Shown here: positions 4,390 to 32,067 of the stretch, one piece after another
Layout of the letters: the number at the start of each line of letters is the position of its first letter
Position numbering within the stretch: position 1 is the first letter of the stretch
Assembly: GCA_902592985.1 (NCBI GenBank)
Contig: CACJGR010000013.1
Coordinates: forward strand, 1-32,081
Length of the DNA: 32,081 bases
Direction of reading: 5' to 3'
DNA from: an uncultured Pelagibacteraceae bacterium
GTDB lineage: Bacteria > Pseudomonadota > Alphaproteobacteria > Pelagibacterales > Pelagibacteraceae
Notes under the pieces: model-generated
The model's database searches: none
Told to the model about the DNA's origin: nothing
Seen by the model: only the letters and a program-made list of their open reading frames with translations
Translations under genes and position numbers: made by a program

Positions 4390-4491
4390 TTAAAGATGAA
4401 CTGTGCTTACAGTGTGCTTAGAAAAATATTTTAATTCTGCAAATTTAATTAATTTATCTGCAATAACCACGATCCCTAAAAGTTTTTTCAT
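4390..4491 (-). pseudogene. Signal-peptide stub fused to unrelated tail (broken secreted-protein gene)
   Basis: The ATG at 4489-4491 opens with MKKLLGIVVI, nearly base-for-base the same start as the intact secreted-protein genes at 22270 and 23008. The hydrophobic core is cut off after nine or ten residues and continues as ADKLIKFAELK to a stop, 33 residues in all. Without the h-region and AxA site it cannot be a working signal peptide. I read it as the remnant of a deleted gene in which only the conserved 5' end survives. Similar stubs are at 5578-5619, 20073-20126 and 30503-30544. A functional 33-residue peptide is not excluded. Confidence 0.6.
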
Positions 4492-4553
4492 TATTGTAAA
4501 TACATATTTTTTTTTGTATTTAATCCAAAGTTACTTTTATGCTTAATATGTTT

Positions 4554-4593: not shown

Positions 4594-5094
4594 TTAGAAT
4601 TGATTATTTACTCTTACTTTTTCTGTAAATCTATTTAAAGAATTATTACAAGGAGTTTTCAAACATATTATAACATTTAAAGTTCCTGTCCCAACATTAT
4701 TATATATGATTTTTCCTATCATTTTATCATTATTTGGTACACTTCCAGAACATTCTATATGACTTGATTGGTTTGGATCATATGGATTTTTAAGTTTTGG
4801 ACCATTTCTATTATATTCAACTATGTGATTACAAAGCATATTTGTTTTATTTGCCCAGGAACAGTACACTTGATCAGCCATTATTTTTATTTCTCCTAAT
4901 TCACATTTCATTAGTTCGGCATTTATAGATTTTATTAACATTTTATGTTGTGCTTTAACGGCATTTTCTTTAGCGCTCTGAGTATACCCACTATAAGCAA
5001 CCACACCTACCGCCGCTAGAATTCCTATGATGGCGACAACGACTAGGAGTTCTATTAGAGTGAAGCCTTTAAAATTTCTACTAACATGAAACAT
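4594..5094 (-). CDS. Type IV pilin-like protein, variable C-terminus
   Basis: This is a type IVa prepilin. A short leader ending in G precedes FTLIELLVVVAIIGILAAVG, with the conserved Glu5 and the N-terminal helix that anchors the subunit in the inner membrane and packs in the pilus core. The conserved block runs to YSGYT; the rest is unique to this copy and has several Cys. I chose the ATG at 5094 (leader MFHVSRNFKG); an in-frame ATG at 5118 would lengthen the leader by eight residues. The start overlaps the end of the upstream pilin gene (5081-5581), so the two are likely co-transcribed. No pilus assembly genes are in the window. Role in adhesion or DNA uptake is inference. Confidence 0.85.
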   Translation of the reverse strand: MFHVSRNFKGFTLIELLVVVAIIGILAAVGVVAYSGYTQSAKENAVKAQHKMLIKSINAELMKCELGEIKIMADQVYCSWANKTNMLCNHIVEYNRNGPKLKNPYDPNQSSHIECSGSVPNNDKMIGKIIYNNVGTGTLNVIICLKTPCNNSLNRFTEKVRVNNQF

Positions 5095-5581
5095 TGTATT
5101 CTGACATGTGTATCTCATCTGTTAATTTTTCATTTTTGTCATTCCAAACAGTTACTATTTTAAGTATTGGTTTTGAACTTACACATTCTTGTTCAAACTC
5201 AACTGATCCTAATATTCCTCTTGGTCCCCAGTTAACTGCTGGATATACGGGATCATTAAAAGGGTGAGTATTAATTGAGCAACGTAAATGTGTCATAAAT
5301 TTATTTGAAACTCCGCTTAATGTACTGGGTGTCATTTTTTTGTTAATTGTATTTTGACAACCATTATTTTCGTACATCCCTTCAAAATATCCATCGTTTA
5401 TAGTGGATTTTAACATAGTTGTAGTTATAAATTTAACTACTAGTTTGTGATTACTTTTTGTTGCATTTTGTTTTGCACCTTTGGTATATCCACTATAAGC
5501 AACCACTCCTACCGCCGCTAGAATTCCTATGATGGCGACAACGACTAGGAGTTCTATAAGTGTGAAACCATTTCTTTTCAT
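5081..5581 (-). CDS. Type IV pilin-like protein, variable C-terminus
   Basis: This 166-residue prepilin has the leader MKRNG and mature start FTLIELLVVV, cleaved between G and F by prepilin peptidase if the family rule holds. The N-terminal helix is almost identical, in DNA as well as protein, to that of the neighbouring pilin, while the region after GYT differs. The tail contains Cys residues near CQNT, RCSINT, EFEQECVS and the terminal NVSC, suggesting disulfide loops. Its ATG overlaps the stop of a 13-residue signal-peptide stub (5578-5619) in an ATGA arrangement. Confidence 0.87.
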   Translation of the reverse strand: MKRNGFTLIELLVVVAIIGILAAVGVVAYSGYTKGAKQNATKSNHKLVVKFITTTMLKSTINDGYFEGMYENNGCQNTINKKMTPSTLSGVSNKFMTHLRCSINTHPFNDPVYPAVNWGPRGILGSVEFEQECVSSKPILKIVTVWNDKNEKLTDEIHMSEYNVSC

Positions 5582-5619
5582 AATAAACCCAGAACCACGA
5601 TCCCTAAAAGTTTTTGCAT
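5578..5619 (-). pseudogene. Signal-peptide stub MQKLLGIVVLGLL, overlapping the pilin start
   Basis: The minus strand from 5619 reads MQKLLGIVVLGLL and stops with a TGA whose bases overlap the ATG of the pilin at 5581. It is a copy of the signal-peptide 5' end seen at 22270 and elsewhere, cut before the cleavage site. It may now act as a short translated leader coupled to the pilin gene, or be debris. It lies 11 bp downstream of a GATAAT -10-like hexamer, so it would be nearly the first thing translated. Confidence 0.55.
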
Positions 5620-5630
5620 TCCAAAAATAT

Positions 5631-18823: not shown

Positions 18824-19978
18824 ATGGCACTTCATTTTAGCAAAGAAGAGTTTTCAAATAGAAAAAGAAATGTTTTAAAATCGATGAAAGAGCAAAATTT
18901 AAATGCTCTTTTAATGTTTAAACAAGAATCTATGTATTGGCTTACAGGATATGATACATTTGGTTTTGTTTTTTTTCAGTCTTTAATACTTAGAGATGAT
19001 GGGGAAATAACTTTGTTAACAAGAGCACCAGATTTAAGACAAGCACAAAACACTTCAAATATAAAAAATATAAAAGTTTGGGAAGATAAAGAAGGATCTG
19101 CCCCATCAGATATTTTAAAAGAAATATTAATAGACCTAAACCTTAAGGGAAAAAACATTGGTATTGAATATGATTCATACGGTTTAACTGGGAAAAATAC
19201 TTTAAAACTTAATATTTCATTAAAAGGTTTTGGAAATTTGTTAGATAAATCTGAATTAATTTCTTATTTAAGGGTTATTAAATCGGATGAAGAGATTGTT
19301 TATGTTAAAAAAGCAGCAGAACTTGCAGATAATGCTCTTGATGCCGTATGGAAGACAGCTAAAGCTGGAGTGAACGAAGGAAAAATTTTAGCTGAAATGC
19401 AAAAGGTTGTTTTTGAAGGTGGCGGTGATTACCCTGCTAACGATTATATAATTGGTTCTGGTCACAATGCCTTGCTTTGTAGATACCAATCAGAAAAAAG
19501 AATATTGGATCAAGAAGATCAATTGTCAATAGAATGGGCAGGTACATACAAACATTATCATTCAGCAATGTTTCGAACCATCCCAATTGGTAAGGCTCAT
19601 AAAAATCATTTTAAAATGTATGATGCTTGTGCTGACGCATTAACCAATTGTGAAACAAAACTTATCCAAGGAAACAAAGTTGGAGATGTTTTTGATGTAC
19701 ACGCAAAAGTATTAGACAGTCATGGATATAAAAATTCAAGAATGAATGCGTGTGGTTATTCATTAGGGTCAACTTTTGCACCTAATTGGATGGACGTCCC
19801 ACCTATGATCTTCACTGGAAACCCATTAATTATTAAACCTGGAATGGTATTCTTTATGCATATGATTCTGATGGACAGTGAGGCGCAATTAGCAATGAAT
19901 CTGGGCGAGACATATTTAGTCACCGAAACTGGCAATGAGAGATTAGGCAAACAAAAGTTAGATTTAGTGGTTTTGTAG
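18824..19978 (+). CDS. M24-family creatinase/prolidase-like hydrolase
   Basis: The 384-residue product has the two-domain pita-bread fold architecture: an N-terminal creatinase-like domain (about 10-145) and a C-terminal M24 domain. In true metallo-aminopeptidases the first metal ligand lies in a D-G-x-x motif; here that region reads SIEWAGTYKHYHSAMFRT (from about 235), with Glu and Ala instead. Other regions, such as GSGHNALLCRY (H214) and PGMVFFMHMILMD, resemble ectoine hydrolase (DoeA) and creatinase relatives. So a metal-independent amidinohydrolase or amide hydrolase is more likely than an Xaa-Pro peptidase. It starts 1 bp after the M23 gene and ends the operon. Substrate unknown. Confidence 0.8.
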   Translation: MALHFSKEEFSNRKRNVLKSMKEQNLNALLMFKQESMYWLTGYDTFGFVFFQSLILRDDGEITLLTRAPDLRQAQNTSNIKNIKVWEDKEGSAPSDILKEILIDLNLKGKNIGIEYDSYGLTGKNTLKLNISLKGFGNLLDKSELISYLRVIKSDEEIVYVKKAAELADNALDAVWKTAKAGVNEGKILAEMQKVVFEGGGDYPANDYIIGSGHNALLCRYQSEKRILDQEDQLSIEWAGTYKHYHSAMFRTIPIGKAHKNHFKMYDACADALTNCETKLIQGNKVGDVFDVHAKVLDSHGYKNSRMNACGYSLGSTFAPNWMDVPPMIFTGNPLIIKPGMVFFMHMILMDSEAQLAMNLGETYLVTETGNERLGKQKLDLVVL

Positions 19979-20020
19979 GGTTTGTTATTAGTCTAGCATA
20001 TAGTCTCAAAAATTATCTAT

Positions 20021-20086
20021 ATGCAGTATTTCTTTGTTCCTATAATTGCTGTGATTGTACTCGTACTTATCTTTATGCTGATCTGA
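20021..20086 (+). CDS. Candidate 21-residue membrane peptide
   Basis: The frame MQYFFVPIIAVIVLVLIFML from ATG 20021 encodes essentially one hydrophobic helix of 21 residues and stops at 20086. It lies 42 bp after the M24 gene and antisense to the end of a signal-peptide stub. Such short single-helix proteins exist, but with no Shine-Dalgarno sequence visible and high A+T, chance is a serious alternative. Confidence 0.3.
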   Translation: MQYFFVPIIAVIVLVLIFMLI

Positions 20087-20126
20087 TCTTTCTTCCTTTA
20101 ACCACGATCCCTAAAAGTTTTTTCAT
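20073..20126 (-). pseudogene. Signal-peptide stub (MKKLLGIVV then unrelated residues)
   Basis: The minus-strand ATG at 20124-20126 encodes MKKLLGIVV with the same codons as the intact gene at 22270, then departs (KGRKIRSA) and stops after 17 residues. It begins 23 bp after the stop of the pilin gene at 20150. The same order, pilin then signal-peptide start, is seen in the 4.4-5.6 kb module. I take it as the 5' remnant of a lost secreted-protein gene. Confidence 0.6.
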
Positions 20127-20149
20127 TTTGAAGTCTTTTTTCTGCGTTT

Positions 20150-20626
20150 TTAATCAATTGTAAATTCATTGTATAAAGCGGTAGTTTCTCCATAACAAGT
20201 AGATATTCTTACTAAAGTTGTACTACCAGAATTAATATTGCTAACCATAACACCACCACTGTTATATTGAATATTACAAGATTGATTTGCATGTGGACCA
20301 TTTAAAGCAACAACATTTTCTTTGTAGGATACAAATGGATTGAGAAATTTTCCATCAAACGCAGCCACAGCTGATTTTCCTATTTCATTTGTAGTATATC
20401 TATCAGAACAGTTAAGATTTCCATCCATAACTTTGGTTTCACCCGTATCGCATTTTTGAATTTCTGCTTTTATAAATCTTATAGTCTGAGCATGCATTTG
20501 TTTTACAACATTTTTTTTGGCTGCATTTGTATACCCACTATATGCAACTACTCCTACTGCAGCTAGTATTCCGATGATGGCGACAACGACTAGGAGTTCT
20601 ATTAATGTGAAACCCCTTTGTTTCAT
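20150..20626 (-). CDS. Type IV pilin-like protein, variable C-terminus
   Basis: This 158-residue prepilin has leader MKQRG and mature start FTLIELLVVVAIIGILAAVG. The conserved helix block ends at YSGYT; the remainder has Cys at EIQKCDT, LNCSDR, QSCNIQ and STCYGE, suggesting a two-disulfide globular head. A TTGACC-N16-GATAAG promoter ends only about 8 bp before the ATG, so the mRNA may have almost no 5' leader. To its right is the first tRNA-Met fragment (20710-20733). It is the only single-pilin module of the three pilin loci. Confidence 0.87.
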   Translation of the reverse strand: MKQRGFTLIELLVVVAIIGILAAVGVVAYSGYTNAAKKNVVKQMHAQTIRFIKAEIQKCDTGETKVMDGNLNCSDRYTTNEIGKSAVAAFDGKFLNPFVSYKENVVALNGPHANQSCNIQYNSGGVMVSNINSGSTTLVRISTCYGETTALYNEFTID

Positions 20627-20634
20627 AGAAACAC

Positions 20635-20662
20635 CTTATCACTGTGTCCTATATATGGTCAA
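20635..20662 (-). promoter_or_regulatory. Boundary element / putative pilin promoter
   Basis: On the minus strand TTGACC (20657-20662) and GATAAG (20635-20640) are 16 bp apart just before the pilin ATG at 20626. On the + strand the same bases are a copy of the 20-bp boundary element, TGTGTCCTATATATGGTCAA (20643-20662). It ends 47 bp before the tRNA-Met fragment. About 95 bp from here through the tRNA fragment is similar to 24824-24922. Confidence 0.5.
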
Positions 20663-20709
20663 TAATTTTGAAATATTGAATAAGTTATACCAATCTTCAT
20701 TTTAGACTC

Positions 20710-20733
20710 CTGACCTCGGGCTTATGAGTCCCG
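20710..20733 (-). repeat. tRNA-Met anticodon-arm fragment, copy A
   Basis: Bases CTGACCTCGGGCTTATGAGT and the following CCCG match the anticodon arm and variable loop of an elongator-type tRNA-Met (CAT anticodon) on the minus strand. The match stops at the end of the anticodon stem, and there is no acceptor, D or T arm. It separates the single-pilin module from the MORN/protease gene, whose stop is 7 bp away. Confidence 0.75.
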
Positions 20734-20739
20734 TGATCA

Positions 20740-21990
20740 TTATCGATATTTACTAAAGAATGCTTTTTGATTATTAGCATCTGCAATCATTTTTTTAATT
20801 TTTGCTTCAGTCATATAACATTCAAGATAAACTGTTGCTTTAGTAATTAGTTGTCCTAAATCTTTATTAGATAAATCTCTATCATTTGGTGGTAGGAATT
20901 TTAAACCATTTGAGCTTGCAAATATTTTCAGAGTTGATGATTTTATTCCAAAGTTAAAACTTTCAACTCCTTCTTTTTTTCCATACGCTGCAACAGCTAC
21001 TCCTACAATATTTCCTTTTTGATTCATCACCGGGCCACCACTGTTCCCTTGATTTAACGCTGCATCTGTTTGAAATTCAGAAAAATTATCTCCATAACCT
21101 GAAAGTGATGTTATGCTACCTTTAGAAGTTTTAATTGATGAGCTAACTTTTTTTCCTAATGGATAACCGGCAATAATAATATTTTCTAGTAACGTAGCAT
21201 CTTCTGTAGCTACTGAATAAACTTGTTGAGGGGTAATGTTGCTCTTTAATATTGCAAGATCGTTCATTTTATCTACTGCCAAAATTTTTGCTTTAATGTC
21301 ATCACCTTTAAAACTTACTTTAACAGCATCACATCCTTCTACTACGTGGTGATTGGTTATTATATGCCCTGATCTTGATACAAAAAAACCTGAACCTGAT
21401 GCAGCAGCAACCACTTTATTATCATCAGATTGGATTTCTGTTGTATAACCTTTAGCTAATTGACCTTTATTCCAGATACCATTTCTAACTGTTCCATCTG
21501 CATACGTGTGTGTTCCTTGTCCGTGTTGATAACCATCTTTCCATAAACCAATGTATTTGTCTCCATTTTCCCATGTGTAAGTTCCATGTCCGTGTAAAAC
21601 GTCATCTTTGATTTCTCCAACATATTTGTCTCCAGCAAAATCTCCTGATACCCATATGAAAGTTCCTTGTCCGTCTCCTTTACCTTCTTTATGGTTTCCA
21701 ATGTATTTGTTTCCACCTGCCCATGTGTAAGTTCCTTGTCCATGCATTTGATCATCTTTAAATTCTCCAACATATTTGTCTCCAGCATTTTCTCCTGATA
21801 CCCATATGAAAGTTCCTTGTCCGTTTGCTTTACTATTTTTATGGTATCCAACGTATTTGTTTCCACCTTCCCATGTGTAAGTTCCATGACCATTGATACA
21901 ATTACCAATACAATTTGCAAAACTAACATTGCACCACAACAAACCCAGAGCCACGATCCATAAAAATTTTGTGATCAGATTATTTTTCAT
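20740..21990 (-). CDS. Secreted MORN-repeat protein with trypsin-like serine protease domain
   Basis: The 416-residue product begins with a signal peptide of the local family (FLWIVALGLLWCNVSFA). Residues 35-175 are MORN repeats of the form GxGTYTWxxGxKYxG; within them a 50-residue unit (36-85) is repeated (86-135) and partly again (136-166). A trypsin-like S1C/DegP-type domain follows, with H215 (TNHHVVEG), D244 (NDLAILK) and S317 (QGNSGGPV), so the full triad is present. No PDZ domain is seen. It should act in the periplasm or be exported. The gene fills a whole module between tRNA-Met copies A and B. MORN plus protease on one secreted chain is an uncommon combination. Confidence 0.85.
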   Translation of the reverse strand: MKNNLITKFLWIVALGLLWCNVSFANCIGNCINGHGTYTWEGGNKYVGYHKNSKANGQGTFIWVSGENAGDKYVGEFKDDQMHGQGTYTWAGGNKYIGNHKEGKGDGQGTFIWVSGDFAGDKYVGEIKDDVLHGHGTYTWENGDKYIGLWKDGYQHGQGTHTYADGTVRNGIWNKGQLAKGYTTEIQSDDNKVVAAASGSGFFVSRSGHIITNHHVVEGCDAVKVSFKGDDIKAKILAVDKMNDLAILKSNITPQQVYSVATEDATLLENIIIAGYPLGKKVSSSIKTSKGSITSLSGYGDNFSEFQTDAALNQGNSGGPVMNQKGNIVGVAVAAYGKKEGVESFNFGIKSSTLKIFASSNGLKFLPPNDRDLSNKDLGQLITKATVYLECYMTEAKIKKMIADANNQKAFFSKYR

Positions 21991-22001
21991 TGCAAAAAGA
22001 T

Positions 22002-22029
22002 ACTATCACTGTGATCTGTGTGCGATCAA
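22002..22029 (-). promoter_or_regulatory. Boundary element / putative promoter of MORN-protease gene
   Basis: On the minus strand TTGATC (22024-22029), 16 bp, then GATAGT (22002-22007), with the ATG 11 bp further at 21990. On the + strand 22010-22029 reads TGTGATCTGTGTGCGATCAA, a copy of the boundary element. It ends 50 bp before the core of tRNA-Met copy B. Confidence 0.5.
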
Positions 22030-22079
22030 TATTTTAATAATTAGTAATTATCATTATTTTTAAATGATTCCGAACCTTT

Positions 22080-22128
22080 GACCTCGGGCTTATGAGTCCC
22101 GCGCTCTAACCAACTGAGCTACCCCGCC
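22080..22128 (-). pseudogene. tRNA-Met 5' part, copy B (acceptor 5' strand to variable loop)
   Basis: The minus strand from 22128 reads GGCGGGGTAGCTCAGTTGGT and continues through the D-arm, the anticodon arm with CAT, and the variable loop. After that the T-arm is wrong and the 3' acceptor strand is missing; downstream is plain A+T-rich sequence. So this is a truncated tRNA gene. The missing 3' part is present in copy C at 23787-23843, which shares 29 bp (22080-22108) with this copy. Confidence 0.85.
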
Positions 22129-22200
22129 ATCTTATTCGTATTGATATATAATACTTTTTATTTTTTAAGCAATCAAGAATTGTCTAATTTCCTTTTTTAT

Positions 22201-22220
22201 TGTGTCATATGTGAGTCAAG
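22201..22220 (+). repeat. Boundary element, left copy of the four-gene module
   Basis: TGTGTCATATGTGAGTCAAG lies 50 bp before the first gene of the module. Its partner at 23746-23765 (TGTGTCACACGTGTGTCAAG) is after the last gene, in the same orientation, and matches at 17 of 20 positions. A partial third piece, GTGAGTCAAG, is at 22237-22246. They could be recombinase or regulator sites. Confidence 0.55.
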
Positions 22221-22269
22221 AACATATGTATTTTTAGTGAGTCAAGTTTTATACTAACGTATAGAAATT

Positions 22270-22707
22270 ATGAAAAAACTTTTAGGGATCGTGGTTCTAA
22301 GTTTGTTGTTGTGCAGCGTTGGTTATACAAAAAATTGCACAGAAAAAGATGAAGAAGACGCTAAAGAGTTTAGCGAATTGTATGGAGATAAAAGAACCTA
22401 CACAGCCGAAGAAGCGTATAGCATTGGAAAAAAAATTGTTGATATATTTAAAGCTAAAGATCTGAAAAAGCTTGTTTCAATGTTTGATGGCGAGTTAAAA
22501 GCAGGTCCACCTTTATCTTATTTTAAAAACAAAACATTTGATGAAGCATTTCAACAAGGTTTTCAAGATATGATAATTAATTCAAAAATATGGTGCAATA
22601 TAGCCGATAGCAACCATGGTTTCACCGTAGGAAATACTTTAATTTGGTTTGATAAAACTAAAAATAATAGATGGGTGATTAGAAAAATTCATTATAATGT
22701 AGAATAA
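22270..22707 (+). CDS. Secreted protein of unknown function, MKKLLGIVVL-type signal
   Basis: The product is 145 residues with signal peptide MKKLLGIVVLSLLLCSVGYT. The mature part holds an acidic helical segment (AEEAYSIGKKIVDIFKAKD), a middle region KKLVSMFDGELKAGPPLSYF and a C-terminal beta-like part ending WVIRKIHY. The layout vaguely recalls small alpha+beta periplasmic domains, but I cannot name a family. Two Cys in the mature part (NCTEKD and IWCNIA) may form a disulfide. It is the first of four head-to-tail genes, with no base between its stop and the next ATG, in the module between tRNA-Met parts B and C. Confidence 0.75.
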   Translation: MKKLLGIVVLSLLLCSVGYTKNCTEKDEEDAKEFSELYGDKRTYTAEEAYSIGKKIVDIFKAKDLKKLVSMFDGELKAGPPLSYFKNKTFDEAFQQGFQDMIINSKIWCNIADSNHGFTVGNTLIWFDKTKNNRWVIRKIHYNVE

Positions 22708-23007
22708 ATGAAAAAACTTTTAGGGATAGCGGTTCTGGGAATGCTTTGGTGCAATTTATCTTTTGCTGAAGAAATTGAATACTCAGCGTCAGATTTAATT
22801 AAATTAGGCTATGTTTTAACTCACGTAACACAAACAAGTAATCAATTTGTTTTGATGTATACGTTTGAAAAAGAATTAAGACCTGGCAAAAATTATTTAG
22901 GGGCTACAAGTATTGTTACGTGCCATATTGCTTTAGATAAAAAAAAAAATAGAGGTAGCTGCTATTCTGTTGCTGATTGGGATAAAGCAAATGTAGGCAC
23001 TAATTAA
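22708..23007 (+). CDS. Small secreted protein, paralogue of the next gene
   Basis: The product is 99 residues with signal MKKLLGIAVLGMLWCNLSFA. The mature domain contains DLIKLGYVLTHVTQTSNQFV followed by YTFEKE and two Cys (TCHIAL and GSCYSV). The same pattern (LKEKGFVLTHVSSDESNV... FFEKDN... Cys) recurs in the next gene, so the pair arose by duplication. The start directly follows the previous stop and the stop directly precedes the next ATG, giving no room for separate promoters. Function unknown; a small disulfide-containing periplasmic domain. Confidence 0.75.
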   Translation: MKKLLGIAVLGMLWCNLSFAEEIEYSASDLIKLGYVLTHVTQTSNQFVLMYTFEKELRPGKNYLGATSIVTCHIALDKKKNRGSCYSVADWDKANVGTN

Positions 23008-23274
23008 ATGTTTCACTTCGTAAAAAAACTTTTAGGGATCGTGGTTATATGTTTATTATGGAGCGCTACACTTTTTGCAGAAGATCATTATCAAACTTTT
23101 ATGACGGAATGTAATTTAACTATCAAGCAACTTAAGGAAAAAGGTTTTGTGTTAACTCATGTTTCAAGTGATGAAAGTAATGTAAATTTATTTTTTGAGA
23201 AAGATAATGAGTTATATCAATTCCGTAAAGCTTATGGGCACTATGGTTATTTTTGTTATAATTTAACAAAATAA
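23008..23274 (+). CDS. Small secreted protein, paralogue of the previous gene
   Basis: The product is 88 residues. The ATG at 23008 adds MFHF before the usual VKKLLGIVVICLLWSATLFA, an extension not seen in sister signals; a GTG at 23020 is an alternative start. The mature part (about 65 residues) has GFVLTHVSSDE and FFEKDN like its neighbour and two Cys (TECNLT and YFCYNL). It has no recognised family. The 24 bases encoding KKLLGIVV are the same as in the gene at 22270 and in the broken stubs, so the repeat is conserved at DNA level. Confidence 0.72.
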   Translation: MFHFVKKLLGIVVICLLWSATLFAEDHYQTFMTECNLTIKQLKEKGFVLTHVSSDESNVNLFFEKDNELYQFRKAYGHYGYFCYNLTK

Positions 23275-23280
23275 TAAGTC

Positions 23281-23700
23281 ATGAAAAAAAAATTATCAGT
23301 TTTGTTTATAGTTTTATTGTTATGCAATAATAGCTATGCCAAAGATTTAACAGGTACAATAATTTATTGCGAAAATTGGAGAAATAAAGCTTTTAGTTTT
23401 AGAAAAAACCCTGAAGCATGGAAATATACTACTTTTGAATTTATAACCAGTTTAAGTGTTGATGTAATATCAATAAGAAAATTTAAATTAGAAGAGTACA
23501 GATACGATTATAAAGTAGAACTACAAAAAATTATAATGGAATCATATAAAATTCGTTACAGCATAGACAGAAAAAAACTTACTTTAAATGATGATAAGCG
23601 TTGCAAGATAATTAAAAATGAAAACTTTAAACCTAAAGAAATTATGAAAAAAAATCTTGATAAAGTAATTGCAAAACAAAAACAACTTAACAAAATTTAG
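23281..23700 (+). CDS. Secreted protein of unknown function
   Basis: The product is 139 residues with signal peptide MKKKLSVLFIVLLLCNNSYA, a more distant version of the local signal family. The mature part is very basic, with two Cys (IIYCENW and RCKIIK) and a C-terminal helix rich in Lys. It begins 6 bp after the previous stop and ends the four-gene set. No family is recognised. The downstream gap to 23745 contains no clear terminator. Confidence 0.68.
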   Translation: MKKKLSVLFIVLLLCNNSYAKDLTGTIIYCENWRNKAFSFRKNPEAWKYTTFEFITSLSVDVISIRKFKLEEYRYDYKVELQKIIMESYKIRYSIDRKKLTLNDDKRCKIIKNENFKPKEIMKKNLDKVIAKQKQLNKI

Positions 23701-23745
23701 CATTATAAAAACAACTTCCCGAGTTCTCAAAATTCCGTTTCTGAG

Positions 23746-23765
23746 TGTGTCACACGTGTGTCAAG
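23746..23765 (+). repeat. Boundary element, right copy of the four-gene module
   Basis: TGTGTCACACGTGTGTCAAG is the direct partner of 22201-22220. It contains a partial dyad (CACACGTGTG) and ends 42 bp before the shared 44-bp repeat at 23808, the same geometry as at the other tRNA-Met copies. Confidence 0.55.
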
Positions 23766-23868
23766 AATTGACTAAACGTTCTAGAATGGTAGCGGGAAGT
23801 GGGATCGAACCACTGACCTCGGGCTTATGAGTCCCGCGCTCTATTAGAGTGAAGGCTTTACGGTTCAT
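23761..23868 (-). pseudogene. Chimera of pilin start and tRNA-Met 3' part (copy C)
   Basis: The ATG at 23866-23868 overlaps the stop of the upstream pilin (TAATG) and encodes MNRKAFTLIE, a pilin start with Ala instead of the required Gly at -1. After Glu the sequence changes without a break into tRNA-Met: anticodon arm, variable loop, T-arm and acceptor 3' strand with encoded CCA (23787-23843). The joint is at the bases CTCTA common to both parents. Read through, it is a 35-residue nonsense frame. It is therefore both a broken third pilin and a 3' tRNA fragment. The tRNA 5' strand and D-arm are missing here and found in copy B. Confidence 0.8.
23808..23851. repeat. 44-bp direct repeat, left copy (tRNA-Met/pilin chimera)
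   Basis: These 44 bp are identical to 24894-24937 in the same orientation. They run from the tRNA T-stem through the anticodon arm into the pilin-leader sequence. The two copies are 1,086 bp apart and enclose exactly the two pilin genes, the structure expected of direct repeats left by site-specific insertion or a tandem-type duplication. Confidence 0.85.
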
Positions 23869-24335
23869 TAATTACCACTAATTGTATCCTCAATCACCTT
23901 ACCGGTGCAAAGAGTCCTTAGTCTGATTGTGTTATTGTTTGTGTAATAATAAGTTCTTCCATCATATTTTGGTGTTCCGCTATTTCCATACCAGCCATTT
24001 ATATCTTTTGGATTATATGGATTCTTTAAGTAGTTTGTCATATGTATTCCGACATTTTGGGATAAAGATTCAAAAGTATTTGAGCAGTTAAAAGAGTATT
24101 CTGCTCCCTGTTTTTGACTAGTAGACCAAGTTCTTAAAGTTATTGTATTTTCAATCTCACATAGCGTTTTTTTTTCTACAATAACCTTTATAATTTTATT
24201 GTGATTATCTTTGCAAACGTTTTCTTTAGCACTAGCCGTATACCCGCTATAAGCAACCACACCTACAGCAGCCAGAATACCGATGATGGCAACTACGACT
24301 AGGAGTTCTATTAATGTGAAGCCTTTTTGGTTCAT
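23868..24335 (-). CDS. Type IV pilin-like protein, variable C-terminus
   Basis: This 155-residue prepilin has leader MNQKG and mature start FTLIELLVVVAIIGILAAVG. The conserved part ends at YSGYTASAKENVCK. The variable tail has Cys near VCKDNH, TLCEIE, FNCSNT and TLCTGK, consistent with two disulfides. Its tail resembles that of the next gene upstream (24339-24815), with shared elements such as TNYLKNPY and YYTNN versus TNYAKSPY and YYPES, so these two are recent duplicates. It is separated from it by 3 bp and followed by a broken third pilin start. Confidence 0.87.
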   Translation of the reverse strand: MNQKGFTLIELLVVVAIIGILAAVGVVAYSGYTASAKENVCKDNHNKIIKVIVEKKTLCEIENTITLRTWSTSQKQGAEYSFNCSNTFESLSQNVGIHMTNYLKNPYNPKDINGWYGNSGTPKYDGRTYYYTNNNTIRLRTLCTGKVIEDTISGN

Positions 24336-24338
24336 ATG

Positions 24339-24815
24339 TTATGGATATTGATCCTTTGGCCACTGATATGATGTTGTTTTTCCACGACATTTTGCTCTTA
24401 ATTTAAATCCAGCTGACTCGGGATAATATGAAATTTGACCGTCTTTAGGTGGATCACCTATATAGCTTAAAATTTCAAGTCCATAAGGTGTATCTTCATA
24501 AGGACTCTTTGCATAGTTTGTAAAATGTTTAACTGTCTCTCCAGCTATTGTTCCAAAATTTGTACAAGATACATCTCTCGCTGCACCTTCGGTATTATTT
24601 GTGTATTGAGTTTTTAAAGATACTTTTCCATCAATATCACATATGGCCCAATGCTGATTAATTAATCTTTTTAAAGTTGCATAGTGATTTAAGCATACTT
24701 TCTCTTTAGCGCTAGCTGTGTACCCATTATAAGCAACCACTCCTACTGCAGCAAGAATACCGATGATAGCTACAACTACTAAGAGTTCTATCAATGTGAA
24801 ACCCCTTTGTTTCAT
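24339..24815 (-). CDS. Type IV pilin-like protein, variable C-terminus
   Basis: This 158-residue prepilin has leader MKQRG and the standard helix, with NGYT instead of SGYT at the end of the conserved block. Cys in the tail (VCLNHY, AICDID, VSCTNF, AKCRGK) match those of the sister pilin. It is the first gene of its module; a TTGATC-N16-GATAAT promoter ends about 8 bp before the ATG, so the transcript would be almost leaderless. The right-hand 44-bp repeat is about 80 bp upstream. Role in attachment or DNA uptake is inferred from the family. Confidence 0.87.
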   Translation of the reverse strand: MKQRGFTLIELLVVVAIIGILAAVGVVAYNGYTASAKEKVCLNHYATLKRLINQHWAICDIDGKVSLKTQYTNNTEGAARDVSCTNFGTIAGETVKHFTNYAKSPYEDTPYGLEILSYIGDPPKDGQISYYPESAGFKLRAKCRGKTTSYQWPKDQYP

Positions 24816-24823
24816 AAAAGGAT

Positions 24824-24851
24824 ATTATCACTGTGCCCTATGTGTGATCAA
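24824..24851 (-). promoter_or_regulatory. Boundary element / putative promoter of pilin pair
   Basis: On the minus strand TTGATC (24846-24851), 16 bp, GATAAT (24824-24829). On the + strand TGTGCCCTATGTGTGATCAA (24832-24851) is a boundary element copy, 42 bp from the 44-bp repeat. Of the copies, this has the best match to a sigma-70 promoter. Confidence 0.55.
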
Positions 24852-24893
24852 TAATTTAGAAATCTTGAACAACTTATAACAATCTTAATTTCA

Positions 24894-24937
24894 AACCACT
24901 GACCTCGGGCTTATGAGTCCCGCGCTCTATTAGAGTG
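24894..24937. repeat. 44-bp direct repeat, right copy (tRNA-Met copy D)
   Basis: It is identical to 23808-23851. To its left the sequence departs from the tRNA within the T-stem; to its right it departs from the pilin leader after ATTAGAGTG, although the next bases still resemble one with TTC (Phe1) deleted. It marks the right edge of the tRNA-Met island; the ordinary gene 24962-25648 follows 25 bp away. Confidence 0.85.
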
Positions 24938-24961
24938 GCTCGTTTGTTTTAATTATGGTCA

Positions 24962-25648
24962 TTAATTTAACAATTTCTTCTTAGCTTTATTAAACTCTTC
25001 TTCAGTTAAAACACCAGAGTCGTACAATTCTTTTAAATCCTTTAACTGCTGCACAAGATCATCATTCTTTTTTTTCTTAGGTTCTTTTTTCTTTTCTACT
25101 TTCTTTTTTTCAATTTTTTTTGTTTTTGTAATACCACCATCATAAAATCCTAGTTCTTCTAATTTTATAGATACCATTCCATTTCTTGCTTCTTTTTTTT
25201 TTATTCTTGTTCCTTTTTTTGGATTTATTCCATTTTGCCAAACTACTTTATCTTTAATTGCAAAAACAAAACATTCTCCATATCCTTGTTCTGCGCATTT
25301 CGCTCTAGCTTTTCCAAGATAGTTTGTGCTCATATCTAAACTGGCACTTGTGTGTCCACGATACCAATATAAACCTTTTCCGTTTTGCGAAAGAATTATA
25401 AATGTTCCTCTCCAATCAAACTGCTTTATCATTTTTTTTTGCCAATCGTATTGTGGATTATTATAAATCTCTCCATATTTTCCAGCGCTAAAATAAAATT
25501 CAACTAAATCAAAAATGTCTTTCGTTAATTTTAATTCTCCTTGACCTGCGTGCTTGGCAAAACTAGAAATAGAGTATGCCGATGTGTGATATATGATCCC
25601 AAAGAAAATAATAAACAAAAACTTTGTTATTAATAATATTTTTTTCAT
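24962..25648 (-). CDS. Exported protein with C-terminal SHOCT domain
   Basis: The product is 228 residues with an N-terminal hydrophobic signal (KFLFIIFFGIIYHTSA). A central domain contains AKCAEQGYGECFVFAIKDKV followed by VW, which resembles the repeated domain of the metalloprotease at 28935. A Lys-rich linker (about 175-195) leads to a short SHOCT domain at the end (LKDLKELYDSGVLTEEEFNK). SHOCT is a short oligomerisation-type helix pair. Function unknown. The start overlaps the end of the DUF2784 gene by 4 bp (ATGA), so both are in one transcript. Confidence 0.78.
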   Translation of the reverse strand: MKKILLITKFLFIIFFGIIYHTSAYSISSFAKHAGQGELKLTKDIFDLVEFYFSAGKYGEIYNNPQYDWQKKMIKQFDWRGTFIILSQNGKGLYWYRGHTSASLDMSTNYLGKARAKCAEQGYGECFVFAIKDKVVWQNGINPKKGTRIKKKEARNGMVSIKLEELGFYDGGITKTKKIEKKKVEKKKEPKKKKNDDLVQQLKDLKELYDSGVLTEEEFNKAKKKLLN

Positions 25649-26013
25649 TTAAAATTTTTTTTCAGTTTATTATATATAAAGGAATATAAAACTATATTTA
25701 TGACTATTAGGGCTATTCCTAAATATATTTGTAAATCTTTAGTAAGATTCATTGGATAAACAATCGGCACTAAGTAGTTTTGAATAAAGCCTTCAGAATA
25801 TGTTGTTAGATTAGCTTTATGTAAAAACCAATTTTCAAGATAAGTCAGAGGACATATGGAATTAGTTAATTCAATATAGGATCCCCAAACAAGAGCAGGT
25901 AAGTGGATAAAAATAATTTTTGTTGTAACAAAAAATAATAATGCACCAAATACAACAAAGAGAATAAAAATAAAATGAACAATTAATGTTAAATTTGCAG
26001 CCAGTTCATACAT
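25645..26013 (-). CDS. DUF2784 family membrane protein
   Basis: The product is 122 residues with about three membrane helices (residues 8-30, 33-50, 95-115). The motif CPLTYLENWFLHKA (about 54-67) is the signature of DUF2784. Function is unknown; members are often in small operons with unrelated genes. It overlaps the SHOCT protein gene by 4 bp and starts about 50 bp after the large membrane protein gene, so a shared transcript with that gene is possible. Confidence 0.85.
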   Translation of the reverse strand: MYELAANLTLIVHFIFILFVVFGALLFFVTTKIIFIHLPALVWGSYIELTNSICPLTYLENWFLHKANLTTYSEGFIQNYLVPIVYPMNLTKDLQIYLGIALIVINIVLYSFIYNKLKKNFK

Positions 26014-27957: not shown

Positions 27958-28329
27958 ATGTCACCAAAAGACTTAGTATTACAGGGTTACAAATTATTCT
28001 CTGAGGGAAAAATAGAAGAATTGGGAAAACAGTGGCACCAAGATGCAAAGATACATGTAACTGGAGATCATGCTTGGTCGGGTACTTACAACGGTTACAA
28101 TGACTGGGTATCAAGAATGCTATCTCAAATCCCAGAAAAATTACCAGGTTTCAATCTAAATATTTTAAATGCAAGTTCAGAGGCAGATAAAGTATTTATA
28201 TATGTGCATGCTACAGCAAAAAATCTCGATATGCATGCTGTACATATGTTCACTGTAAAAGATGGGTTGCAAACTGAAATGCGTATATTTGATGATACTC
28301 AAAAAATTTCTGCTGCACTAAGTAAATAA
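27958..28329 (+). CDS. SnoaL/NTF2-like fold protein
   Basis: The product is 123 residues. The N-terminal helix (DLVLQGYKLFSEGKIEELGK), QWHQDAKIHVTGDHAWSGTY, and the C-terminal strands AVHMFTVKDGLQTEMRIFDD fit the cone-shaped SnoaL-like NTF2 fold of small-molecule isomerases, hydrolases and ligand-binding proteins. His and Asp residues face the expected pocket region, but no specific activity can be assigned. It is cytoplasmic, with no signal peptide. It stands alone in a 459-bp unit between hairpin-repeat copies 1 and 2. Confidence 0.8.
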   Translation: MSPKDLVLQGYKLFSEGKIEELGKQWHQDAKIHVTGDHAWSGTYNGYNDWVSRMLSQIPEKLPGFNLNILNASSEADKVFIYVHATAKNLDMHAVHMFTVKDGLQTEMRIFDDTQKISAALSK

Positions 28330-28342
28330 TTTTACAAAACTC

Positions 28343-28372
28343 AGGACACCTGGCAGCAGAACGCTCCTTTTT
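28343..28372 (+). terminator. Hairpin repeat copy 2, possible intrinsic terminator
   Basis: AGGACACCTGGCAGCAGAAC followed by GCTCCT and a run of T (28368-28372) can fold as an outer GGA/TCC stem with an inner CTG/CAG stem. It begins 13 bp after the NTF2-like gene and would end that transcript. It is also a copy of the repeat at 31576 and 32016, so its role as terminator may be secondary. Confidence 0.5.
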
Positions 28373-28380
28373 AATTGCAA

Positions 28381-28863
28381 ATGATAAAAGAGTATAAACA
28401 AAACAGTACTTCTAAAATTCTAAATATAATTAATAATGCTTCCCTAAAGTACAAAGGTATTATTCCTAATGATTGTTGGAAAGAACCATATATGTCAGAA
28501 CAAGAATTGTTAAATGAGTTTAGTGAAGGAGTTTGTATGTATGGTTATCATCAGAATGATAAATTAATTGGAGTTATAGGAGTTCAAAAAGTAAAAGATG
28601 TTATCCTTATAAGGCACGCATATACTTTATCTTGTTATCAAAATAGAGGAGCTGGAAGTGCATTGGTAGAATATTTATTAAAAAAAAGTCAAGATTCACG
28701 TTTGTTGGTTGGTACTTGGAAGGATGCAACTTGGGCAATTCAATTTTATCAGAAATTTGGTTTCATTCTTCATACAAAAGAAGAAACAATCTTATTGCTT
28801 AAAAAATATTGGAAAATACCAACAAAACAAATTGAAAATTCAGTAGTGCTTGAAAAGTTTTAA
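28381..28863 (+). CDS. GNAT-family N-acetyltransferase
   Basis: The product is 160 residues. The acetyl-CoA binding motif A appears as TLSCYQNRGAGSALVEYLLK (Q-x-x-G-x-G/A pattern), followed by FYQKFGF (motif B) near residue 125. Middle strands KLIGVIGVQKVKDVILIRHA fit the fold. The substrate is unknown. A TTG two codons upstream is in frame, but the ATG at 28381 is preferred. It begins only 9 bp after the hairpin repeat, so it must be transcribed through it or start at once. Confidence 0.85.
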   Translation: MIKEYKQNSTSKILNIINNASLKYKGIIPNDCWKEPYMSEQELLNEFSEGVCMYGYHQNDKLIGVIGVQKVKDVILIRHAYTLSCYQNRGAGSALVEYLLKKSQDSRLLVGTWKDATWAIQFYQKFGFILHTKEETILLLKKYWKIPTKQIENSVVLEKF

Positions 28864-30502: not shown

Positions 30503-30544
30503 TCACAACAAACTCAGAACCATGATCCCTAAAAGTTTTTTCAC
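30503..30544 (-). pseudogene. Signal-peptide stub (decayed)
   Basis: On the minus strand GTG at 30542-30544 opens VKKLLGIMVLSLL and then TGA. The DNA continues to resemble the signal region of the intact gene at 28935 for about ten more bases with small changes, so a full signal-encoding segment has decayed here. It faces the metalloprotease gene tail to tail. The rest of 30474-30694 holds no intact gene; a 28-codon minus-strand stretch at about 30557-30640 may be another remnant. Confidence 0.5.
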
Positions 30545-30673
30545 TAATCAGCCTTACTACTTGTCAATTGATTGCCAATCACCTTCTTCAAATGGTATCT
30601 TCACATCATTTAACAGTCTTTTAAACTTTTCTAATCTAATTTTTTCTTGATTTTATTCTGTTAAATTAATTTT

Positions 30674-31575: not shown

Positions 31576-31601
31576 GGGGCACCTGGCAACAGAACACCCC
31601 C
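31576..31601 (+). repeat. Hairpin repeat copy 3
   Basis: GGGGCACCTGGCAACAGAAC followed by ACCCCC can form GGGG/CCCC outside and CTG/CAG with a GCAA (GNRA) tetraloop inside. It differs from copy 4 at one base in the first 25. It lies 35 bp before the DUF805 gene and lacks the second stem seen at copies 1 and 4. Confidence 0.6.
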
Positions 31602-31636: not shown

Positions 31637-32008
31637 ATGAACTTTGGAAAATCTATAAAAACCTGTTTTACTAAATATGCTGAATTTTCTGGAAGAGCAT
31701 CAAGATCTGAATTTTGGTGGTTTGCACTTTTTGGTTTTGTAGGTGGAATAGTTACTGGAGTAATAGATGTAATGATTTTAGGATATTCTTTTGAATCATA
31801 TGGACCCACAAATATAATATTTAGTGTAATAACTTTTCTACCTTATCTCGCTGTTGGAGCAAGAAGACTTCATGATATAAACAGATCAGGTTGGTGGCAG
31901 TTAATTGTACTAACTGTGATTGGAATAATCTTATTAATAATTTGGTGGGCAACCATTGGCGAAAATAAGAATAATGTCCATGGTTCACCCTTAAAATTAA
32001 AAAAGTAA
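31637..32008 (+). CDS. DUF805 family membrane protein
   Basis: The product is 123 residues. The N-terminal FSGRASRSEFWWFALF (about 18-33) and the central ARRLHDINRSGWWQLI (about 75-90) are the two signature motifs of DUF805. Three to four hydrophobic helices are visible. Function is unknown; members are inner-membrane proteins. It is alone in a 440-bp unit between hairpin repeat copies 3 and 4. Confidence 0.9.
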   Translation: MNFGKSIKTCFTKYAEFSGRASRSEFWWFALFGFVGGIVTGVIDVMILGYSFESYGPTNIIFSVITFLPYLAVGARRLHDINRSGWWQLIVLTVIGIILLIIWWATIGENKNNVHGSPLKLKK

Positions 32009-32015
32009 TATTTTC

Positions 32016-32067
32016 GGGGCACCTGGCAACAGAACGCCCCTACAGACTTTCATATTTTGTAGGTTTT
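32016..32067 (+). repeat. Hairpin repeat copy 4 with second stem-loop
   Basis: GGGGC and GCCCC (32016-32020, 32036-32040) close a hairpin with inner CTG-GCAA-CAG. It overlaps a second stem CCTACA (32039-32044) / TGTAGG (32058-32063), followed by TTTT. The second stem with its T run could be an intrinsic terminator for the DUF805 gene, which ends 8 bp before the repeat. The two stems share CC at 32039-32040, so they would compete. The window ends 14 bp later. Confidence 0.55.

Follow-up and report, generated by a model that had tools for sequence, protein, structure and literature searches.

A chain of putative integrative cassettes among tRNA-Met fragments in a Pelagibacteraceae contig

We describe an island of small gene modules separated by four pieces of a tRNA-Met gene in a contig of an uncultured Pelagibacteraceae bacterium (CACJGR010000013.1, assembly GCA_902592985.1). 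The window analysed is the entire 32-kb contig (32,081 nt; C13 of genome G000), and the assembly comprises 1.14 Mb in 44 contigs and is 83% complete. The 22-nt core of the four pieces, GACCTCGGGCTTATGAGTCCCG, is matched at 20712, 22080, 23815 and 24901, always on the plus strand, and has no match in 100 shuffles of the window; a 29-nt string is exactly identical in the last three pieces. No further core copy was found in the 83%-complete assembly (29-mer with up to 3 mismatches, 22-mer with up to 1). The cores are spaced at 1.37, 1.73 and 1.09 kb, and the intervals contain whole genes only: a MORN-protease gene, four small open reading frames (ORFs) and two pilin genes. An earlier note, made from the letters of this DNA, had described the four repeats in one orientation, the 29 identical bp and the intervals of 1.1-1.7 kb with intact genes, all of which we find as described. 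It placed the island from 20635 onwards; the gene order stands but the start does not, since the first piece goes with the pilin gene on its left (20150-20626), and the chain therefore starts before 20635.

The pieces, F1 to F4, lie on the minus strand with respect to the tRNA and retain different parts of the 77-nt tRNA-Met gene. F1 (20710-20733) keeps positions 28-51 and F4 (24894-24929) positions 21-56. F2 (22071-22128) is the 5' half, positions 1-58, at a right junction of class B (the classes are defined below), and is the only sequence within 19900-26000 that Rfam recognises as tRNA-like (RF00005, 31.8 bits). The native upstream flank of the tRNA gene is kept beside it (22129-22165, minus strand), and 22071-22165 is 83% identical to the intact locus of the relative G084. 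F3 (23787-23843) is the 3' half, positions 21-77, behind a class A end ...GACTAAACGTTCTAGAA; this end together with the tRNA string of F3 has exact matches in seven named contigs, all of uncultured Pelagibacteraceae, which, along with the gene content, marks the genome as one of Pelagibacter type. F3 and F4 have 8 nt in common beyond the tRNA. ARAGORN found no intact tRNA-Met in the window. A permuted tRNA gene, with the 3' half (F3) ahead of the 5' half (F2), was considered and rejected, as relatives have intact genes and F2 and F3 match element junctions. F1 to F4 are probably remains of attachment sites.

Four cassettes, E1 to E4, can be delimited with these pieces and with direct repeats of 11-bp spacing (lag-11 repeats, scored out of 9) that lie at element ends and resemble an integrase arm site. 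The cargo of E1 is pilA (20150-20626, minus strand; PF07963 N_methyl, E 6.4e-10), a type-IV-pilin-like gene that shares repeats D1 (64-71%) and D2 (82%) with the other pilin copies. Upstream of it stands an eroded arm-like repeat, CACTGTGTCCTATATATGGTCAA (20641-20663, plus strand), whose best lag-11 repeat is 6/9, 56 nt before the anticodon-loop string CTTATGAG. E2 carries a gene for a MORN-repeat and trypsin-like protease (20740-21990, minus strand; PF13365, E 3.9e-25; PF02493, E 1.8e-23), homologues of which are cargo in the relatives' elements L035, L038, L039, L040 and L128. Its arm-like site, CACTGTGATCTGTGTGCGATCAA (22007-22029, plus strand), has 2 mismatches to the family arm and a repeat of 6/9; core start minus arm end is 51, the distance to the anticodon loop is 61 nt, and E2 terminates at F2 in class B fashion. 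E3 holds s1 to s4 (22270-22707, 22708-23007, 23008-23274 and 23281-23700, together 22270-23700, plus strand), genes for small predicted secreted proteins for which no Pfam family was matched; a homologue of s1 is cargo of the class A element L145 (36% identity, E 4e-23). The left arm-like site of E3, TATTGTGTCATATGTGAGTCAAG (22198-22220, plus strand; 6/9), lies 102 nt from the F2 anticodon loop, as in element L126, and the 150 nt to the right of F2 hardly differ from that element's left end, which is of class B. The right arm-like site of E3, GAGTGTGTCACACGTGTGTCAAG (23743-23765, plus strand; 8/9), stands 60 nt before CTTATGAG in an end of class A type that is common to L036, L129, L145 and others. 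E4 contains the pilin-like genes pilB and pilC (23868-24335 and 24339-24815, minus strand; PF07963, E 7.2e-10 and 6.9e-10) and the arm-like site CACTGTGCCCTATGTGTGATCAA (24829-24851, plus strand; 2 mismatches, repeat 6/9), 58 nt before CTTATGAG and with core start minus arm end of 50. The right arms of the window lie at 56-61 nt from the anticodon loop. When the window was scanned for lag-11 repeats at a strict 8/9, the right arm of F3 was the only one returned within the island.

The intact elongator tRNA-Met gene is an insertion hotspot in relatives. The core 22-mer (up to 1 mismatch) was matched in 250 of 399 genomes of the genus, ours included; at least two copies occur in 34 of these, and our genome, with four, has the most. 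For comparison we used 53 fetched loci with exactly one intact tRNA-Met gene. Between neighbouring tRNA copies, 34 inserts of 498-7533 bp were mapped in 32 genomes, 32 of them at 30 loci with an intact tRNA-Met; the other two, L035 and L040, are ectopic and have a fragment on either side. Class A inserts (n=12) leave a 3' half, with the inner border at tRNA position 24-28. Class B comprises 22 inserts, both ectopic ones included; the 20 at the tRNA have the intact gene on the left and a 5' part on the right, with the border at 49-63. Three tRNA copies occur at 4 of the 30 tRNA loci (L124, L128, L145, L146). The set comprises only copies with the core CTTATGAGT[CT]CCG, so that elements with mutated scars are left out. 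This applies to further 3' scars of L124 and L128, to a collapsed element in G280 and to elements of genomes with a variant tRNA, such as L262. The cargo is compact, mostly 1-5 ORFs, and includes trypsin-like proteases, putative small secreted proteins, type I restriction-modification, a helicase-like protein and a primase-like AAA protein. In the cargo read, part of which was covered by the Pfam search, we recognised neither conjugation genes nor remnants of them.

In the usual neighbourhood of the fetched loci, a phosphoribosyltransferase gene and variable sugar genes are followed by tRNA-Met and by a gene for a large enzyme with DAO and GCV_T domains; a second arrangement exists. At L069 both domains were found in a dehydrogenase-like gene near the tRNA-Met site. 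Because of this gene, we think that the canonical site is probably hypervariable region 4 (HVR4) of SAR11, which in strain HTCC1062 contains pilins, sarcosine dehydrogenase and flanking tRNA genes, according to a 2007 study (PMC2217521). In our genome, contig C16 has the left part of the canonical locus (transporter, binding-protein and speE-like genes, 90-96% identical to L069 proteins); its last 2.4 kb gave no further match to L069 proteins, and C31 has a dehydrogenase homologue of 34% only.

Arms and cores keep a fixed geometry. Lag 11 gave the top score in all four sets of ends, by a clear margin in three of them; in the set of class A left ends, the scores of lags 8 and 9 were elevated too. 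Repeats scoring 7/9 or better occur at 58-62 nt before CTTATGAG in 28 of the 34 right ends, against a mean of 0.06 and a maximum of 1 in shuffles (single bases were shuffled, and words with fewer than 3 G/C were skipped here and in the comparison of arm words). Right ends outside this rule are L126 (84 nt), L134 (91), L147 (102) and L150 (103), together with L155 (5/9 at 103) and L152 (6/9 at 61); the integrase-bearing L134, L147, L150 and L155 are mirrored, with the near arm on the left at 62-63. Left arms lie at 70-73 nt in class A and at 96-114 in most class B ends where the repeat is well scored. At least six different arm words have the same geometry.

The arm shared by MORN and pilin cassettes (up to 3 mismatches) has 14 sites in 12 of the 399 genomes, with one match to the reversed control pattern. 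At twelve of the 14, a core copy is found at 50-51 nt, counted from arm end to core start; the other two are beside an intact tRNA with a decayed core and upstream of a core-less pilin gene. The E1 repeat is not among these genus-wide sites. L125, which bears an integrase, has a GTGATC arm of the MORN type. The class A arm has 31 sites in 15 of the 399 genomes: where a core copy is listed, right arms are at 50 (7/7) and left arms at 65 (7/7), and the same word also serves as class B left arm at 97 in G251 and our own genome. Of the remaining sites, one is the right arm of a G263 element by a variant tRNA, and 14, some of them in arrays, are spread over six further genomes. In the pilin, MORN and L261 cassettes the arm is just upstream of the gene start. 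An arm with its core forms what we take to be a heterobivalent attP: arm repeats at a fixed distance from the core are found in the relatives' elements, and an integrase would bind to them.

Empty sites were searched for among the 53 single-tRNA loci, a locus being accepted when it matched the outer flanks (400 bp on each side) up to 15 nt or less from the tRNA. An element-free relative was found for 9 of the 32 element loci, in 7 cases with at least 165 bp matched on each side, and the breakpoints of inserts fall inside the tRNA. The presence and absence of modules with breakpoints in the anticodon-arm repeat, which the earlier note had proposed as a check, is hence seen at the relatives' intact tRNA-Met locus. 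Boundaries can be placed more closely in a protease cassette found at an ectopic place in G011 and G027, which is 99.8% identical over 1368 bp, versus 86.3% and 85.7% in the flanks. On the left, differences at host level continue up to the base before CTTATGAG, and from CTTATGAG onwards the two cassettes are identical for about 140 nt, where their lengths differ by one base. On the right, there are two base differences immediately ahead of the tRNA part, and the sequences diverge a few bases past CTTATGAGTCCCGCGCTCT. Strand exchange in the anticodon loop would explain this identity switch, and the ectopic target may have been an older tRNA fragment.

Arrays of one-gene units occur in the genus as well. 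In G201 (L261), seven units, mostly about 0.7 kb apart, encode related putative secreted proteins, each with an arm and a core that starts 48-49 nt past the arm (1-6 of 22 mismatches). There is also an eighth arm, which lacks a clear core. Arms are 94% and cores 89% identical among the seven units, against 71% for the spacer, 56% for the post-core sequence and 58-68% for the genes. When eight sequences were scanned, the best core lay 48-50 nt after the arm at 18 of 22 sites, 16 of these with at most 9 mismatches, a level reached at 73 of 2000 random positions at any offset; 6 of the 22 arm sites, one of the window's two included, have background-level cores only (10-12 of 22 mismatches). Kindred arrays in G157, G070 and G420 have different neighbours. 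We also observed about ten pilin-like genes in tandem at around 8300-13400 of L142 (G182).

We consider it probable that the island is a chain of small integrative cassettes at attachment sites derived from one tRNA-Met gene. The attachment site would consist of a core, the anticodon arm, and, at a distance of about 60 nt, of an arm-type repeat with a period of 11 bp, to which the integrase would bind. A tyrosine integrase would join the circular form of a cassette to the core of either an intact tRNA-Met or an older fragment. Integration of a class A cassette would then restore the 3' half of the tRNA, and that of a class B cassette its 5' half; the displaced half would remain as a scar, and repeated integration events would give chains. 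Cassettes devoid of an integrase could borrow one from an autonomous element or a prophage. The ectopic chain of the window may have begun from fragments carried with pilin genes and eroded afterwards. The earlier note had left the choice between cassettes mobilised in trans and homologous shuffling undecided; site-specific recombination is favoured by the constant spacing of arm and core and by the change of identity at the anticodon loop. Its idea of small, chained, tRNA-linked and mostly integrase-less units, akin to tRNA-targeted marine elements, agrees with the inserts of the relatives.

Several observations weigh against this interpretation. Three of the four right-hand repeats of the window and the left repeat of E3 score 6/9, below the cut of 7 used for relatives, although the arms of E2 and E4 match the family arm with 2 mismatches despite that score. 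Left ends of E1, E2 and E4 were not seen, and E3 is of class B type at its left end but of class A type at its right. In the post-pepP stretches of 19 genomes, no relative was found to have just some of the window modules at this site. An element-free relative is missing for 23 of the 32 element loci, and the single PF00589 (tyrosine integrase) match of our own incomplete genome is a 325-aa protein in C33, Xer-like by its size. From the mixed ends of E3 and the unseen left ends of the other cassettes, it follows that part of the chain would have arisen by deletion or homologous recombination. By all appearances, the island is an ectopic, partly eroded and partly rearranged chain away from any intact tRNA-Met. 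No homologue of the island was found in the 20, ~7 and ~4.5 kb beyond pepP of G084, G182 and G053, the nearest relatives by pepP; G182 has pilin-linked arm and core copies at other places.

Integrases are scarce. PF00589 lies inside 6 of the 34 elements (L125, L127, L134, L147, L150, L155), and the other 28 measure 498-3732 bp (median 1682). The window contig has no PF00589 match, in line with the earlier note, which had seen no integrase there. Among the 34 genomes searched, many of them incomplete, 30 have no or one PF00589 gene outside elements, the one-contig G357 and our own included, and such genes are often 325 aa long and Xer-like by that size; two are present in G183, G301, G312 and G452. 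In G452, a prophage-like segment with a 424-aa integrase and a helix-turn-helix protein lies on the 3' side of tRNA-Met. Because so few PF00589 genes occur outside elements, movement of the cassettes in trans by foreign integrases is likely. A viral source was considered but found no backing. In viral contigs, the exact 27- and 19-nt cores had no matches; seven stretches matched a pattern for the L125 integrase, none of them encoding a relative, and the L155 integrase had 599 relatives, the best 80 of the 599 being 27-35% identical. With the intact tRNA-Met as query, 430 records of a phage collection matched, 4 of them at 90-95%; the 20 matches listed are 76-83% identical, and most are annotated tRNA genes, with two records lacking annotation.

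Two side observations concern gene content near these integrases and tRNA ends. L134 and L147, elements of 6.7 and 7.5 kb at tRNA-Met, combine an integrase with type I restriction-modification (domains checked in L134). A basic protein of 55 aa is encoded in six class B elements (L131:7804-7971 and five more) with 92% mean column identity, in several near the tRNA end; the L131 copy had no Pfam or PHROG match, and the protein is possibly a recombination helper.

Alternatively, the units could be leftovers of larger islands or prophages that kept their attachment sites, in the manner of cis-mobilizable elements (CIMEs), and are immobile now. The absence of PF00589 from 28 of 34 elements, the prophage-like segment that adjoins tRNA-Met in G452 and the erosion of some window ends are all compatible with such decay. 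However, the compact cargo with conserved ends on both sides, and an integrase-less unit 99.8% identical between hosts with flanks of about 86%, point to recent movement, and we regard this explanation as unlikely. Homologous recombination might instead account for everything, the tRNA-Met pieces serving as short homology for shuffling or tandem duplication with no site-specific enzyme at work now. In this respect, F3 and F4 agree for 8 nt outside the tRNA, pilin copies with their upstream blocks resemble duplications (D2, 82% over 231 bp), the pilin array of G182 has about ten copies, and unequal crossing over could explain the paralogous array of L261. Tandem duplication is a real alternative for such paralogous arrays, less so for the window with its unrelated units. 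Against homologous recombination alone, the same end structure is found on unrelated cargos, ends are precise, 6 of 34 elements have an integrase domain, and the arm-core spacing stays constant (28 of 34 ends) while the spacer diverges (in L261, 71% versus 94% for the arm and 89% for the core). Homologous recombination as the sole process therefore seems quite improbable to us. Binding boxes of response regulators can also be 11-bp direct repeats, and the arm lies directly upstream of the gene start in the pilin, MORN and L261 cassettes, but the opposite element ends have arms too, with fixed distances to the tRNA, and at least six different words show a common geometry, which makes it very hard to believe that the repeats are such boxes and the tRNA pieces incidental.

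Returning to site-specific cassettes, the G201 arrays allow a broader proposal, which we offer as a tentative one: Pelagibacter could possess an integron-like cassette system without an integron, with tRNA-Met-derived sites near gene starts, dispersed arrays as well as the tRNA as places of insertion, and integrases acting in trans. On this reading, which we hold to be less likely than not, a cassette would consist of one gene or a small operon, often beginning with the same secretion signal, and passing elements or phages would supply the integrases. If true, this system would be a main source of variation in a known SAR11 hypervariable region. By analogy, the cassettes would work like integron gene cassettes, with one or a few genes and one recombination site, in arrays. 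Unlike in integrons, the site is derived from a tRNA, has arm repeats and, in cassettes of the pilin, MORN and L261 kinds, precedes the gene. The integrase side of this comparison was covered by the general PF00589 search of the 34 genomes. The 2007 study reports that no attC was found at SAR11 variable regions (PMC2217521).

The closest known kin of these units are tRNA-targeted islands, CIMEs and tycheposons, and the size, the bias to the 5' half and the arrays are unusual. As in tRNA and tmRNA islands of the Islander class, the target is restored on one side and a displaced fragment lies on the other, which is found for 32 elements at 30 loci of relatives; the window has fragments only. Islander (PMC4383910) lists an anticodon-centred crossover among known tRNA subsites, requires an integrase per island, and has two size peaks, at 13.6 and 39.9 kb; a 5' fragment is recorded for 159 of its 3919 islands, and tandems of at least 3 occur 4 times. 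Here, in contrast, the 5' half is involved in 20 of 32 elements at the tRNA, three copies occur at 4 of 30 loci, and 28 of 34 elements lack an integrase domain; an own tyrosine integrase, typical of tDNA islands, is present in 6 of 34 elements and absent from the window contig, and precise empty sites, another feature of theirs, are seen in relatives (9 of 32 loci). CIMEs and accretion tandems, as described in PMC5704250, also have attachment sites without integration genes, heaped at one target, a condition shared by 28 of our 34 elements; the integrase-less units here differ in their size of 0.5-3.7 kb and in the many sequence families of their ends. Prochlorococcus tycheposons, known to us second-hand from PMC10872708, resemble the units here in a marine streamlined host, tRNA targets including Met, cargo and, for a minority of the units, tyrosine recombinases. 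With 4-200 kbp (PMC10872708) they are mostly far larger than the units here, which target a tRNA too but usually miss the recombinase (domain in 6 of 34 elements). The same source describes additive flexible genomic islands of Methylopumilus, of 330 bp-42 kb, preceded by direct repeats of the last 20 nt of tRNA-Lys (PMC10872708); here it is the anticodon arm that recurs, the 3' and the 5' half both serve, and the arm-like sites as well as the boundaries of the cassettes have been delimited. In the portions available to us of the literature on SAR11 variable regions, tycheposons, tRNA elements and satellites, we found no description of integrase-less tRNA-Met cassettes in SAR11. The nearest reports there concern a translocated O-chain cluster that one SAR11 group has near tRNA-Val and tRNA-Met (PMC11898729) and a Pelagibacterales phosphonate operon with adjoining recombinases and tRNA genes (PMC12416821).

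With core, arms and distances defined, such units can be searched for by their signature; programs that demand an integrase in every island pass over them by design. The same definitions make the question of recombination simple to put to an assay. SAR11 bacteria are among the most abundant marine bacteria and have a very compact genome, with hypervariable regions of unclear mechanism.

Some further features of the window deserve mention. The starts of s1 to s3 (22270, 22708, 23008) encode a similar secretion signal, MKKLLGIVV..., with nearly identical DNA. This signal-start DNA also occurs beside pilins as short repeats without a full gene, at 4464-4492, 5592-5620, 20099-20127 and 30517-30545. 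In relatives, such signal starts are found in 12 of 96 ORFs inside elements versus 1 of 484 outside (P 2.6e-9). Two 29-bp signal-start repeats stand on either side of a pilin pair at 4594-5581, between tRNA-Val and lon; the pair is absent in the nearest relative G084. Finally, a repeat with palindromic ends, GGGGCACCTGGCAACAGAACGCCCC, lies at 31576-31600 and 32016-32040, on either side of an ORF at 31637-32008; a weaker third copy belongs to a repeat family at 28328-28384, and our genome has 4 copies (up to 3 mismatches).

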